A DNA stretch of 25,068 nt from a virus. A model generated the notes under the pieces. It saw only the letters and a list, made by a program, of their open reading frames with translations, did no database searches and was not told where the DNA came from. The translations under genes and the position numbers were made by a program. The stretch covers positions 1 to 25,068 of the IMG/VR virus record IMGVR_UViG_3300025138_000325; one strand, written 5' to 3'. Within the stretch, counting starts at the first letter, position 1. Every line of letters begins with the position of its first letter. Positions 9,678-21,824 of the stretch are shown piece after piece.

Positions 9678-11884
9678 GCAAAAACTACCTCCACACTCAT
9701 TCCTAATATTTTAATTGGCAAAGGATCATCTTGAGATAATGTAACTGTTGGACTTTGACTATAACCTAAAAAGAAAAATTCTTTTTTTGCAGTTACAGGT
9801 GTTAGGTCAGAACCACCAGTGAAGTTAACTTGTTGGACTACTAAAGATTTAGAGGTTGTGTCTGCAGCTTTTACAGTCAAATCTAAAGCAGAATTAATAT
9901 CAATGATGGCTCTTGAGATTCTTCTTGGAAGTCCTGTTAATGGACCTTCTGGTAATTCTTTATCTATCGGCATAGTTTCAATAATAGGTATATAGTTAAA
10001 TCCAATTTTTACTCCACTTGCTCTTGGCGAATTTAATGTAATAGTATCTGCAGCAGTAACAGTAAACGCACCTAATGAGCTATTACCTTCTACTGCATTA
10101 ATAGATTCATTTGTATAGATACCATTTACAGAATGTAAAAGTCCTTTGACTATTGTAACAGCAGCATCATTTGCTGGAGTGGCTGCTAAGTTTTTATCTA
10201 AGTTAAGATCATAAGATCCACTACCATTATTAGTTACAGCTTGAATAGTATATTCAGTAGCATTTCCTGCAATAGTAAATGTTTCATTAATTTTTGGATC
10301 TGATGTAAATCCATCTATTTTAACAACAGCTCCAGATTGACTACCACCTTGTACTAATGGTGTTCCTCTTTGACTAACTGTTGATGTTGTTTGCATATCT
10401 AATGTAATACTATCATCATCTCCAAATTTTTCTAGTGTATATACTGTAGATCCATTTAATTGTCTTTTAACACTACATACTAAAAATTCATTTAATGTAA
10501 TTACTGATTGATACAAGTCATTTTCTTTAGTTGTCCATAGACCCCATCCTGCTATTTTTTCATCTCTTACAGAATGAAACATAGCCATTGTTCCTGGTAG
10601 TGTAGTTCCATTGTTTAAAAAGAAAGCATATTGTTCTGGTCTAGTAAAGTTACCTTTTATAATAGCTACTTGTTTAGGGTTATCAATTAGATGTTGTGCA
10701 AGAATTGATACCGAAGTTGATTTATAACCATCTTCAATATCAGAATAAATAAACTCTCTAACAGCTTTACCGTTTTTTTGAATAAATCCTGCTGCTTGAT
10801 CAAACATAACAGGAGCTGTTCTACTAATACCATAAGGTGTTTGTCTTAATACTGACACATTACCAGGAGTAATAGTATTGTCATTAGCTCTTGGAATGTA
10901 ATATTCTCCACCATCTGTAAATACTTGTAAGTCTTTACCAGATAATAAATGTCTAACTTCATTAACTTCTGAACCTGCAATATCTAAATCTATAGCTTCA
11001 TCAGCTTCACCAGATCCAGTACTAAAATTAAAGTACTCAGATATTCTAGATCCTAATATTCCAGCAGGTCTAGATTTTAAACCACCTAACCAAAGTCTAT
11101 TACTATGAAAAGTAACAGCTTGTGGGAATCCTTGTTTAGTAGATATAGCTTGTTCTGCCCAATCATGATGAGGACCAGTACTACCCATATCTTCTATAAT
11201 AGTTATAGTAACTACTGTAGCAGAAGTAAAACCAGTTATCTTACCTTGTTTTTTATTAATCTCTATATAGTCGCCAACTTGATTACTTGTAAATGAACTT
11301 GCACTAGCAGTTACTGTTTTACCAGTACCTGTACTATGAGCAGATAAACTAACGCTAGTTGAACTAGAAGCATATTTAAAAAATGGTCTAGTTGTTTTAT
11401 TAACACCACTTACAGTTACTGAATCATCATCATCAAATGCAAATGCTGATACTGTAAATGTACTTGCAGAACTTCTAAATATTTTTCTTGTTTCATTATC
11501 TCTATGAGTAATAAAAATAGTATCACCAAATTGAGCAAAATTTAATTCAAACAATTGAGCTGTAGTCCAATTACAATTGCTTGTAGTATTTGATACTAAT
11601 GCAGTACCACTAATATTATAAACATCTAGTCTTTGATTAGATAAAACTATAATAGCTATTTCATCATCAGAAAAAACAAATGGAATTAATCTAGATTCAG
11701 CAGGTAATGTTGCTAGGTAAGTAGTACCTGGTCTTCTCATTAAACCACCTTCTGCTAATAATGCAAAGTTTCTACATTGCTTAGCACCATTAGTATAAGC
11801 AGGTGTATCTATTCTAGTAGCTAGTAGTGGGTTAAGCTCTCCAGAAGAAAAATTGGTTAATACAGTTTTTAATGTTCTTGCCAT
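9674..11884 (-). CDS. Tail tubular protein B / tail nozzle
   Basis: 736 aa. The N-terminus carries the hallmark of T7 gp12-type nozzle proteins at about residues 11-57: NFSSGELNPLL, R-x-D-x2-Y-x-NGAK, then LLAEGGLMRRPGTTYL. The rest is beta-rich with long Ser/Thr/Gly stretches, as expected of the propeller and fibre-dock domains. The nozzle closes the portal-tail channel and holds the fibres. It starts by sharing bases with the stop of the adaptor gene (TAATG), so the two are translated in tandem as in T7-like phages. The length is close to that of T7 gp12 (about 794 aa). Confidence 0.88.
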   Translation of the reverse strand: MARTLKTVLTNFSSGELNPLLATRIDTPAYTNGAKQCRNFALLAEGGLMRRPGTTYLATLPAESRLIPFVFSDDEIAIIVLSNQRLDVYNISGTALVSNTTSNCNWTTAQLFELNFAQFGDTIFITHRDNETRKIFRSSASTFTVSAFAFDDDDSVTVSGVNKTTRPFFKYASSSTSVSLSAHSTGTGKTVTASASSFTSNQVGDYIEINKKQGKITGFTSATVVTITIIEDMGSTGPHHDWAEQAISTKQGFPQAVTFHSNRLWLGGLKSRPAGILGSRISEYFNFSTGSGEADEAIDLDIAGSEVNEVRHLLSGKDLQVFTDGGEYYIPRANDNTITPGNVSVLRQTPYGISRTAPVMFDQAAGFIQKNGKAVREFIYSDIEDGYKSTSVSILAQHLIDNPKQVAIIKGNFTRPEQYAFFLNNGTTLPGTMAMFHSVRDEKIAGWGLWTTKENDLYQSVITLNEFLVCSVKRQLNGSTVYTLEKFGDDDSITLDMQTTSTVSQRGTPLVQGGSQSGAVVKIDGFTSDPKINETFTIAGNATEYTIQAVTNNGSGSYDLNLDKNLAATPANDAAVTIVKGLLHSVNGIYTNESINAVEGNSSLGAFTVTAADTITLNSPRASGVKIGFNYIPIIETMPIDKELPEGPLTGLPRRISRAIIDINSALDLTVKAADTTSKSLVVQQVNFTGGSDLTPVTAKKEFFFLGYSQSPTVTLSQDDPLPIKILGMSVEVVFA

Positions 11885-12483
11885 TATGCATCAGTTCTCG
11901 TAGAGTTTCTTAGATTGATAAATCTAGAAGTATCTAATTTTCTTGTAGTTACTTCTGCTGTATCTATATTTTTAGATATTAAAAATTGTCTATCAGACAT
12001 TTGTTTAAATTGATTTATCATACCAGCATCTCTAGCAACTGAACCTGCAAATAAAGAAGCTAAGTCATATTCTAAAGCTAATCTAAAATGAGGTGGAAAA
12101 TAATCTTCTTCTACTCTGTAAATATAATCTAATACTAAACTATGACCTGCACCATAAGTATTAACATAAATCATATTCTTATATCTTGTATAAGGAATAA
12201 TATAATCGTTAACTGTTAATGTATTAATTTGTAAGACTCCAGGATCAGCAGGTAGCTGATAAGCAAATTCATATCTTCCTACTGGAGCTGTTGATAATAA
12301 TGATAATGTTTTTTGATTAGTAGCAAATTTCCATCTATGTCTTGTTAAAGAAGCTTGTAAAATATCTTCATAAACATTTGAAGCAACTAAAGCTTCTGTA
12401 GATCCATCTGTAAAAGAAGATATAGGTTGAGCACCTATCATTACTAAAGCTCTTGCACATATATCTACTTTTGATGTCGCCAT
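11884..12483 (-). CDS. Tail tubular protein A / tail adaptor (T7 gp11-like)
   Basis: 199 aa, close to T7 gp11 (196 aa). The N-terminus has the conserved helix ICARALVMIGAQPISSF, then ALVASNVYEDILQASLTRHRWKFA, a 'YQLPADPGVLQI' strand and LALEYDLASLFAGSVARD near residue 140. These are all recognisable features of the gp11/Gp4-type adaptor that forms the ring between portal and nozzle. It is followed directly by the nozzle gene. It is separated from the upstream capsid pair by a GC-rich hairpin (12494-12530), which may set its expression below that of the capsid. Confidence 0.88.
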   Translation of the reverse strand: MATSKVDICARALVMIGAQPISSFTDGSTEALVASNVYEDILQASLTRHRWKFATNQKTLSLLSTAPVGRYEFAYQLPADPGVLQINTLTVNDYIIPYTRYKNMIYVNTYGAGHSLVLDYIYRVEEDYFPPHFRLALEYDLASLFAGSVARDAGMINQFKQMSDRQFLISKNIDTAEVTTRKLDTSRFINLRNSTRTDA

Positions 12484-15205: not shown

Positions 15206-16755
15206 TATTGTGGTATCTCTCCTTCTTTAGGTGCAGTTTGTAACTGACTAATCTGTTGTACTATTTGCTTTTGTTCTTCTTCATCACGAATAAGTTTTTC
15301 AGGCAAATTCATTTTCTCAGCTAGATACTTAGCAGTTTCATTTTGATTAACAATAACATTAATCATTTGTGGACCAAAAGTACCTGCAATAATTTCGTTA
15401 AATCTATTTACATCAGAAACATCTTGCATATGTTGAGCTTGAGCTAATGGTGATCTAGCTCCTATCTTAACTTCTCTACCATTAACTTTAGGTAATTCTA
15501 TTCTACCTTGTTTAGATAATATTCTAATAATTCTTTTTAATAATGGATGTATAAATTCAGATTGTAATCTTCCAAAAGAAGAACCTATCTGTCTTGATAG
15601 ATCTGCCATTCTTTCAGAAACTTCTGTTGCTGTCATTGGAGTTCCTTCTGGTCTTCCAAGAGCTTCCATGTATAAAGCTTTTTTAATATTTTGCCTCATA
15701 TCATTTAATACTAATTGAGCTACATCAAAATTAGATGCAGATTGAATTGCACTTAATCCTCTTGATCCTGGAGCTACTGGTATTAAAGATCCAGGTACTA
15801 ACGCTATGTTGTCTGGATTAATTACACCATCATCTTCATAAGTATAAACTCCAGATACTGACATCTGTGCATTTTGTAATATTAACTCAACAGTTAAGTT
15901 ACAAGTTTTAATAGCTCCCATTGCATTAAATATTGGTCCTCTACCATAAACTTCACCAGATGCTTTATTCCATCTAAATACTAAGTAAGGATTAGATCCT
16001 TCACCTTCATATTCTTCTTCAAAGATAACTGCTTTAGGATTATCTAATACTACACAGTATTTATATTTTTCTACATTTTCTTCATAAATTTTATATACAG
16101 CTTCTATAATTGTTAATTCTTTTTTTTGTTGAAGCAAATCAAAATTTTCTGGCATTACAGCTTTAGGATATAAAACTTTAATGTGTTCTGGTTTTACTTT
16201 TCTAGTTCTATATACTGTATCAATCTTTCCATCTGGTCCATTTAATAAACATACTTTAGGTAATGGTACAGCTGTAAATTTTACAGGATTAATAGCATCA
16301 CCTTCTTCAACTAACATACATCCAGTACCAACAGCAAGATCCATAAATGATTCGTGTACTTCTTGATTGAAGTTTGAGTTTTGTAATACTTCAAAAACGT
16401 ATTCTGTAATTTTATCTAACTGTAAATTAACTTGTGATTTTTGCTCATCTGGTATTTCAACACCTGCTTGAAAATCTGCCCATCTTGCAAATGTAGGTAC
16501 GATACCAGATTGCAATCTTGATGCAAATTCTTGTACACCTACTACAGCAGTTTCATCAAAAATTTTATCAGTTCTTCTTTGTCCTGGCGATTCATCATAA
16601 AAAGATTCTCTATTAGGTAAACAATACTCATAAGCTTCTTCAAACTTTTCTCTCCAATGATCTTTAACAGATACAGCTTCTTTATATTTTTCTAAGATAG
16701 CATTTGCTTTATCTGATGTATTTACTGATGGTGTAGTGTCTACTGTATAATCCAT
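15205..16755 (-). CDS. Portal / head-tail connector protein (T7 gp8-like)
   Basis: 516 aa, close to T7 gp8 (536 aa). Residues 30-100 carry the family signature: HWREKFEEAYEYCLPNR, a SPGQRRTDKIFDETAV segment, and FASRLQSGIVP followed by W. The clip and stem region follows. Near residues 355-405 there is GRPEGTPMTATEVSERMADL and a long helix ending in HPLLKRIIRIL, conserved in head-tail connector proteins. The twelve-subunit ring at one vertex is the DNA gateway and docks terminase. The gene sits between the lysine-rich protein genes and the Bbp19/scaffold/capsid block. Its RBS is weak, and a small hairpin (16779-16798) lies in its leader. Confidence 0.9.
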   Translation of the reverse strand: MDYTVDTTPSVNTSDKANAILEKYKEAVSVKDHWREKFEEAYEYCLPNRESFYDESPGQRRTDKIFDETAVVGVQEFASRLQSGIVPTFARWADFQAGVEIPDEQKSQVNLQLDKITEYVFEVLQNSNFNQEVHESFMDLAVGTGCMLVEEGDAINPVKFTAVPLPKVCLLNGPDGKIDTVYRTRKVKPEHIKVLYPKAVMPENFDLLQQKKELTIIEAVYKIYEENVEKYKYCVVLDNPKAVIFEEEYEGEGSNPYLVFRWNKASGEVYGRGPIFNAMGAIKTCNLTVELILQNAQMSVSGVYTYEDDGVINPDNIALVPGSLIPVAPGSRGLSAIQSASNFDVAQLVLNDMRQNIKKALYMEALGRPEGTPMTATEVSERMADLSRQIGSSFGRLQSEFIHPLLKRIIRILSKQGRIELPKVNGREVKIGARSPLAQAQHMQDVSDVNRFNEIIAGTFGPQMINVIVNQNETAKYLAEKMNLPEKLIRDEEEQKQIVQQISQLQTAPKEGEIPQ

Positions 16756-20803: not shown

Positions 20804-21178
20804 TCACGTTAAATCAATATTAATCTTAATATCCCCCTGTATGTTGTGACTCACCTTATCTGGTGCTCTCAACCCTACTCTATCGAGAATATCTCTACTA
20901 GCTTCTAGTTGAACGTATTCACTCCTTGCTCCACTGGATAGCTCGATCATCTTCCTACTCGCACTTACTGCCCCAAGTCCAAGAGTTTGTGCCACACGTT
21001 GTTGCATATACTGTTGTACCTTTGGTAAACGTAGTGTGCGAGAAGCACTTACTCTCGCTGAATCTTTACTAACATTCGTTGAATATCCTGCTGTTTTAGC
21101 AGCTTCAGTTATACTACACCCAGTAGCTACGATAGTATCTACTAATGCTCGTTGTTTCTCTGTAAGATCGTCTTTCAT
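20804..21178 (-). CDS. terS: Terminase small subunit
   Basis: 124 aa. The N-terminal part has the terminase small-subunit pattern: LTEKQRALVDTIVATGCSITEAAKTAGYS (residues 5-33), which is a helix-turn-helix, followed by ASRTLRLPKVQQYMQQR (45-61), then LGLGAVSASRKMIEL and a C-terminal tail for oligomerisation or large-subunit contact. It recognises phage DNA and brings in the large subunit. It is the first gene of the leftward operon. It faces the divergent gap, and a GC-rich gap separates it from the rest of the packaging genes. In 'Terminase_2' type proteins the spacing of these helices is the same. No better alternative, such as a generic regulator, fits the position. Confidence 0.8.
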   Translation of the reverse strand: MKDDLTEKQRALVDTIVATGCSITEAAKTAGYSTNVSKDSARVSASRTLRLPKVQQYMQQRVAQTLGLGAVSASRKMIELSSGARSEYVQLEASRDILDRVGLRAPDKVSHNIQGDIKINIDLT

Positions 21179-21197
21179 AACACTTATTTATTCTACC

Positions 21198-21234
21198 CTT
21201 ATAGGTACGTAGATATTAATTTTCCTTGTGTCAA
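21198..21234 (-). promoter_or_regulatory. Candidate promoter of the leftward (late) operon
   Basis: On the minus strand a perfect TTGACA -35 box lies at 21234-21229, inside an inverted CTTG-aca-CAAG. At 17-base spacing the -10 would be a poor TACGTA (21211-21206). A good TATAAG box lies at 21203-21198 but too far for this -35. The region leads straight into terS. A sigma-70 type promoter is plausible but not certain. Confidence 0.35.
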
Positions 21235-21284
21235 GACAAATAACAGACCTTTAGTGATATATCAAACTCACATAACTAGATGTT

Positions 21285-21625
21285 GTATGGCGACTAACAG
21301 GCTCTAGTGCTTTGCACCCAAGCCCTTCGGTCTTGTCCCTAAAGGGTAACGATCCTGGTCGCAAGTAATGGAGTTGCCAAAGGCAACGCTTAGAACCCCA
21401 TACGCAATTAGCTTCGCTACCATTCGCTGTTGCTCATTATTGCTATGGGTCCCCCTCTACACACGTAATCGCTGGAGTATAACAAGGAATCCCCTCATCC
21501 ATTCAATAGGGCGTAATGTCCACAAGGGACATGAACGCCACACCCTAAAGGGTGTCGAGCTATTGAGTGGCGAGTACTCCCCTTGTTTACTTAGCGATAC
21601 CACGTGCGTTAGGCACTGTTGGTAT
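21285..21625 (+). ncRNA. Large structured non-coding RNA candidate with pseudoknot
   Basis: About 340 bases, GC-rich against an AT-rich background, with no credible gene. Helices on the plus strand: 285-290/398-403; 291-294/358-361 with 298-301/354-357; hairpins 307-317, 319-335, 337-346 and a perfect 373-387; 404-408/439-443; hairpin 409-419; 468-473/593-598 enclosing a pseudoknot formed by 474-479/575-580 and 481-487/581-587; an 11-bp helix 499-509/560-570 closing a three-way junction with arms 510-539 and 540-555; and 3' hairpin 599-623 (all +21000). Wobbles T21502-G21567, T21480-G21574 and T21284-G21404 fit RNA from this strand. The architecture does not match the tRNA, tmRNA, RNase P, HDV-like or group I arrangements I know. 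It could be a free RNA or the leader of the rightward operon. A replication or packaging site is the alternative. Confidence 0.6.
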
Positions 21626-21653: not shown

Positions 21654-21824
21654 ATGGAGTACGTTAAATACTATGAGTTGATAGTTGATGAGCATGATAA
21701 GAAAAGAGTGCTTGAATTATCAATGTTAAAAGAAGAAGCTATAGTGAAATGTGACTATGATAAAGTTAATGAACTGAATAGCGAAATTAATAATATAACA
21801 AAAGGAGTTAAATATGATGGCTAG
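21654..21824 (+). CDS. First rightward gene, small hypothetical protein
   Basis: 56 aa, MEYVKYYELIVDEHDKKRVL followed by LSMLKEEAIVKCDYDKVNELNSEINNITKG. This is a short strand or helix and then a coiled-coil-prone pair of helices. RBS AGAAAGG lies 6 bases before the ATG. The next gene begins 11 bases before its stop, so the two are translationally coupled. I recognise no family. As the first product of the rightward arm, immediately behind the structured RNA, it is a natural candidate for an early host-directed or regulatory protein, but that is inference from position. Confidence 0.6.
   Translation: MEYVKYYELIVDEHDKKRVLELSMLKEEAIVKCDYDKVNELNSEINNITKGVKYDG

Follow-up and report, generated by a model that had tools for sequence, protein, structure and literature searches.

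Experimentally known single-stranded DNA (ssDNA) promoters come so far from a few enterobacterial plasmids. Frpo2 and Frpo1 of the F plasmid were shown in vivo to drive early expression of the leading genes (PMC9849209). They also belong to the ssi elements (Masai & Arai 1997; PMC9849209; PMC11541004) and resemble the element described here in a module, M1, that is homologous by covariance model. The ssDNA promoters of the ssi2/ssi3 type in plasmid ColIb-P9 have a leading-region position comparable with that of the phage and F elements. The STAXI motif (RF01728) also lies near SSB, antirestriction and integrase genes, and its authors discuss ssDNA as a possibility (PMC2864571). C4 antisense RNA (RF01695) is likewise a short phage hairpin element near early genes, and GOLLD, ROOL and OLE (PMC12286853) are similarly large, ornate and partly phage-borne folds. 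The element analyzed here fills an intergenic gap of a marine dsDNA tailed phage, and we consider it, with a probability of roughly 0.55, to be related to Frpo/ssi, that is, a folding element that serves as an ssDNA promoter or priming element.

The window, the whole stretch of 25,068 nucleotides that was analyzed, carries a leftward late operon with terS, terL, portal/adaptor, capsid and tail genes and, across the gap at 21285–21625, a rightward early operon. Judged by its terminase, portal/adaptor and capsid genes, the phage is a dsDNA tailed phage. The left divergent neighbor of the gap is terS, for the small terminase subunit (20804–21178, minus strand; PHROG 51, 2538 and 641), and the first gene of the early operon encodes 56 aa of unknown product (21654–21824, plus strand). 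A GC-richer, very strongly folding stretch fills the gap, alongside promoter-like sequences for terS and the early genes. That for terS and the late genes, TTGACA-N17-TACGTA (21206–21234, minus strand), was read from the sequence and is a consensus match only. The early one, TTTAGT-N17-TAACTA (21250–21278, plus strand), is conserved among relatives and ends about 10 bp before M1; the arrangement TTTAGT (or TTGTGT) ... CTCACA..TACTA is kept in 38 distinct homologues matching the motif. Because this conserved promoter-like sequence precedes the gap element, a plus-strand transcript through the gap is likely. Conserved half-palindromes, ACTTTAGT and ACTAAAtGTAGT, in the early promoter region (21250–21290) could be operators. 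Relatives of the phage carry SSB and the YqaJ recombinase in the early operon. A T7-type RNA polymerase was not detected in four larger contigs, a weak result since the controls of the search were also silent.

Searches with terS, together with a pattern search made independently of terS, gave 137 distinct homologous gaps, and nearly all of the pattern-search matches adjoin terS. Gap length ranges between about 200 and 700 nt, and the gaps are mosaics of modules. In the window, M1 is a four-way junction (21289–21363, 73.2 bits with model R1). It is followed by a hairpin read from the sequence, GTTGCC-AAA-GGCAAC (21373–21387), with a stem that forms in both RNA and DNA folds, and by module M2 (21396–21449), a rod found by motif scan and closed by CCCATAcGCAAT and ATTGCTATGGG. 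The M2 stem covaries, reading CTCGAT/ATCGCT in L050, CGCAGT/ACTGCT in L037 and CGAGAT/ATCTCT in L049. Module M3 (21460–21617) is of type A and comprises an AACAAGG/CCTTGTT rod, an internal loop GGAATCCCC/GAGTACTCC, an 11-bp helix and a three-way junction; in other phages it is replaced by type B (TTGTATCATGAG), so that relatives such as L088 and L089 have the same 5' half and different 3' halves. BLAST found no relatives of the M2-M3 stretch in plasmids and none of one type-B 3' half in phages, and both results count against an ssDNA reading. L087 has lost most of the 3' rod in a natural deletion that spares the promoter and genes; this rod is perhaps dispensable, unless a misassembly of the contig explains the loss.

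Among isolates, Pelagibacter phage Hodr is the nearest by terminase (66% identity in terL and 59% in terS). The gap at the corresponding position in Hodr likewise folds strongly, and R1 finds no M1 match there. Hodr encodes a DnaT-like HTH protein in the early operon and is the only tailed phage found with ArdC. In its leader (L082:2585–2780; OQ414635, approximately 12180–12375; fold z −5.8) the Shine-Dalgarno sequence of the first early gene, CCAAAGGAGG, pairs over 10 bp with an upstream CCTCCTTTGG, suggesting translational control. The record OQ414635, named Hodr (EXVC031P), bears locus tags "EXVC032PBaldr," possibly a naming mix-up.

The helices that an earlier reading of this DNA from its letters only (the sequence-only reading) had proposed are all present where it placed them, and the strong fold is real: the RNA z-scores are −5.66 for the plus strand and −4.45 for the minus strand, with no shuffle folding as well, and with DNA parameters the minus strand of the gap has a z-score of −6.64. 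The Rfam scan that it had proposed gave no family match in the window; with Rfam 15 at gathering and permissive thresholds, nothing relevant appeared in the window or its relatives, and STAXI, C4, GOLLD, ROOL, OLE and all other families gave no score at family threshold. Its proposed covariation test was passed, in that diverged phage homologues keep the helices by compensatory change. An R-scape-like per-pair test had little power, with 1 significant pair in each set, and whole-structure tests with a tree-aware null were therefore used. When the single-sequence fold of the window is placed on the other type-A homologues, 85.5% of pairs are canonical as compared with 67.0 ± 2.4% in the null (z 7.7), and double compensatory changes occur at 31 pairs (null mean 15.8, maximum 23). 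The type-B homologues give z 5.3 and 3.8 with two reference folds. Over 17 type-A homologues, the 11-bp helix keeps a mean of 91% of its pairs and the AACAAGG/CCTTGTT helix 98%. The interleaved pseudoknot fared differently: its GGAGTAT/GTACTCC half keeps 57% of pairs, and it is complete only in the window and the near-identical L293. The outer 6-bp helix, which was said to close around the whole, is not conserved either (53% of pairs kept). The stretch next to the packaging gene does fold, is conserved and has a mosaic make-up; a conserved structured element without an Rfam match is what stands of the sequence-only reading, but its pseudoknot, its plus-strand RNA and its label "unassigned" do not.

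M1 comprises an outer stem, GCGAY/RTCGC, a second stem, NNNGCTC/GATCNNN, that contains an invariant C.T opposition (A.G on the minus strand), and three inner hairpins. The C.T opposition is at the identical place in every correctly parsed copy. R1 was built from alignment A1 and contains no enterobacterial sequence. The P1a, P1b and P2 pairs were drawn on A1 by inspection, and the A1 counts lean towards them; because R1 is home-made, its E-values are rough, and counts on alignments fitted to it lean towards the model. In 67 distinct copies, 95.7% of the cells of the four-way junction are paired, as compared with at most 54.6% in slid controls, which speak against the pairing being an artefact of the drawn pairs. 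Changes on both sides are found in 14 of the 18 pairs, and the covariation is 0.355 versus 0.102 in shuffles. Minus-strand DNA folds of the window M1 and of the F M1 have the same four-way topology; the Pf1 copy, folded alone in the same way, has a different minimum. Among 75 tailed-phage loci, R1 detects M1 in 34 at E 0.01 and in 31 at E below 0.001, with a single copy per locus, in one orientation and at the end of the gap nearest the promoter. Phages of this terS family that are more distant (71–72% identity; L060:2848–2918, L065, L076, L079) have weaker M1 matches of 25 to 20 bits at the same place. The element to which M1 belongs is apparently undescribed.

When R1 was run on 20 kb of the F leading region (L495), it gave exactly two matches, both in leaders: one upstream of ssbF (10093–10174, 42.1 bits, E 1.5e-11) and one upstream of the ygeA/ygeB region (15481–15562, 33.0 bits, E 1.3e-8). 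Between the two leaders, identity is 89% over a stretch of 559 bp that begins shortly before M1, and, to judge by position and similarity, those of ssbF and ygeA correspond to Frpo2 and Frpo1, respectively. The homology between F and the phage concerns M1 only. F and the phage are also alike in the order M1, hairpin, rod(s), first gene, in the polarity of M1 relative to the downstream genes, and to some extent in neighbors such as SSB and antirestriction genes; in the tailed phage, M1 precedes the early operon with SSB and YqaJ, ArdC being confined to the distant Hodr. They differ in that the M2 and M3 rods are unrelated in sequence to the F rods and in that the phage also has a normal dsDNA promoter-like sequence. 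No −35 and −10 boxes in an intrastrand duplex were recognized by eye in M1, which weighs against the ssDNA reading. Entry as ssDNA, a defining feature of Frpo/ssi, is found with the inovirus copies of M1 (by taxonomy and gene content), whereas the terminase, portal/adaptor and capsid genes here are those of a dsDNA tailed phage. No ssDNA entry is known for such phages, which counts against the ssDNA reading. Because a dsDNA phage of this kind lacks one defining feature, the element contains a Frpo-family module but is not itself filed as a Frpo promoter. ColIb-P9, with its related leaders and known ssDNA promoters, has no significant M1 by R1, which again counts against this reading; a CCGAACC/GGTTTCGG hairpin similar to P2 of M1 lies at the equivalent place upstream of ssb (L497:12780–12880) and is perhaps a strongly diverged M1. 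STAXI differs in being a repeated pseudoknot and in the absence of an Rfam match for the gap sequences. GOLLD, ROOL and OLE differ in the same absence, in the mosaic of short modules and in the lack of a plus-strand wobble signal in the gap. C4 antisense RNA, considered once M1 had appeared in other phages, gave no match even at E 10, and integron attC-like and ribozyme readings were dropped after inspection by eye.

Outside the terS locus, a search with the M1 pattern found two viral contigs, one of which (L314) we take to be an inovirus because it has integrase, Zot-like and coat-like genes. Two copies lie in an inovirus-like prophage of Pseudomonas. BLAST finds M1 in Pf1, other Pf phages and two Synechococcus inoviruses, and in 135 plasmid records that are mostly alphaproteobacterial (82 conjugative, 20 mobilizable). 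Of the genomes sampled, R1 matches M1 in 13 of 190 from one class and in 7 of 150 from the phylum; a scan of genome contigs with a short M1 pattern of 14 specified bases gave mostly chance matches, with about 15 genuine copies. On chromosomes, ardC (Pfam ArdcN and MPTase-PolyVal) is the next same-strand gene in five copies, and by a crude ORF call the next ORF is on the same strand in 31 of 42. Other chromosomal copies precede ParB-domain, mobilization (NikA-like) or plasmid genes, and some copies are near relaxase and type IV secretion genes. One uncultured Pseudomonadales chromosome (G012) has eight diverged copies in different contexts (L448, L456, L459, L462, L464, L466, L467, L468).

M1 runs antisense to the neighboring phage genes in all inoviruses that were inspected. 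In Pf1 (AY324828, 3686–3776) it is overlapped on the opposite strand by the annotated PA0719, the start of which may be misplaced. The virion strand of an inovirus has the same sense as its genes. For the leading genes of a plasmid to be transcribed while the transferred strand is single-stranded, that strand has to be their template. Because M1 is antisense in inoviruses, and by this template logic for plasmid leading genes, the entering strand would be the complement of the M1 sense in plasmids and inoviruses alike and hence the folded one. This complement is the strand whose hairpin loops resemble stable DNA loops. The homology, the covarying structure, the polarity and the gene context of M1 are direct observations, and its recurrence in inoviruses, plasmids and the Frpo leaders leaves "unassigned" without support and points to folded ssDNA.

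An unlikely but substantial alternative is a structured RNA leader, transcribed on the plus strand from the early promoter and acting in cis (by processive antitermination as in HK022 put, or through the stability or translation of the mRNA) or as a small processed RNA. Likeness to HK022 put, suggested by the promoter-leader position, is retained only as part of this alternative. It fits the promoter-like sequence directly upstream, the strong plus-strand folding and covariation, the Shine-Dalgarno pairing in the distant Hodr, and the finding by eye of no terminator before the first gene. The sequence-only reading had also taken wobble pairs as a sign of a plus-strand transcript. That argument falls because G-U does not outnumber A-C in the covarying helices, where a functional plus-strand RNA should have G-U well above A-C: the counts are 12 versus 14 in type A and 17 versus 22 in type B, and the 3' helices have no G-U excess. 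The wide M1 set does lean towards the plus strand (G-U 18, A-C 8, p 0.08, in an alignment fitted to a plus-sense model), in favor of an RNA leader and against ssDNA. The antisense position of M1 in inoviruses and its Frpo connection speak against an RNA leader.

The stability of the two strands and their loops bear on the same choice. In 99 of 100 homologues the minus strand has the more stable fold; with either RNA or DNA parameters, this is true of 24 of 24. The z-scores are similar for both strands, which counts against the ssDNA reading, and the greater stability is therefore partly a matter of base composition. GNA triloops are reportedly very stable in DNA (Hirao and colleagues). On the minus strand of the tailed phages they are approximately threefold enriched (27/117 versus 223/2812 in shuffles), and on the plus strand they are not (7/117 versus 151/2812). 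UNCG loops show no plus-strand enrichment (1/106 versus 31/2794 in shuffles), a further point against an RNA leader. The minus-strand loops of the third hairpin (hp3) are GNA, GNNA or GNAB in 41 of 51 M1 copies; of these, the GNNA and GNAB tetraloops were selected for their stability in DNA (Nakano 2002, as cited in PMC8373063). Against the ssDNA reading, tailed-phage tetraloops are hardly enriched for GNNA/GNAB, and the hp3 loop of the window itself is TTTA on the minus strand.

It is more doubtful that the gap is a replication origin or protein-binding site, with hairpins that extrude or form on the lagging strand and load a primosome or initiator, the kinship with Frpo being confined to its ssi (priming) side. 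The location between divergent early and late operons would suit an origin, as would the SSB and YqaJ of the early operon, joined in Hodr by the DnaT-like HTH protein; Frpo, as the title of Masai & Arai (1997) has it, also serves primer RNA synthesis. No origin activity is known, however, the gap differs in length (about 200 to 700 nt) and swaps modules, and R1 does not match the complementary-strand origins of G4 and M13 (L444 and L446, no match at E up to 10). A mobile, REP-like palindromic repeat, spread by a single-strand transposase and functionless for the phage, would account for the eight copies in one Pseudomonadales genome and the modular shuffling but is very improbable, since tailed phages carry M1 once, in one place and one orientation, M1 has fixed loop nucleotides and stays conserved across long distances, and it is repeatedly placed upstream of ardC.

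The gap element is probably a folded single DNA strand rather than a new RNA. We infer that the element acts in the tailed phage as ssDNA and that RNA polymerase or primase reads it, for priming or early transcription. The working form would most likely be the minus strand, the template strand of the early operon, when it is single-stranded. M1 would then form a four-way junction next to the long imperfect hairpin rods, of which there are one or two, and from this folded DNA the transcription or priming machinery of the host would initiate RNA in the plus direction. The counterpart in conjugative plasmids would switch on the leading genes from the strand that enters; in inoviruses, this polarity would be consistent with complementary-strand priming. 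In the tailed phage, the element would most likely prime DNA synthesis on single-stranded early-region DNA that arises from replication or recombination, and it perhaps also directs transcription from such DNA.

More tentatively, conjugative plasmids, filamentous phages and tailed dsDNA phages may share one family of ssDNA promoters or primers, marked by M1, and marine tailed phages may start early transcription or DNA synthesis from ssDNA with a mosaic version of it, which would imply an unrecognized single-stranded stage. M1 would give ssDNA promoters a recognizable structural signature in Alphaproteobacteria, in the filamentous phages of Pseudomonas and Synechococcus and in a group of marine tailed phages, and it would predict where the DNA of an element is read while still single-stranded. 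It would serve as a search tool for leading regions outside the Enterobacteriaceae. For the Pf phages, M1 is a candidate element, with complementary-strand priming as one guess at its role, and for the tailed phages it prompts a question that can be tested directly, namely whether they pass through a single-stranded stage.
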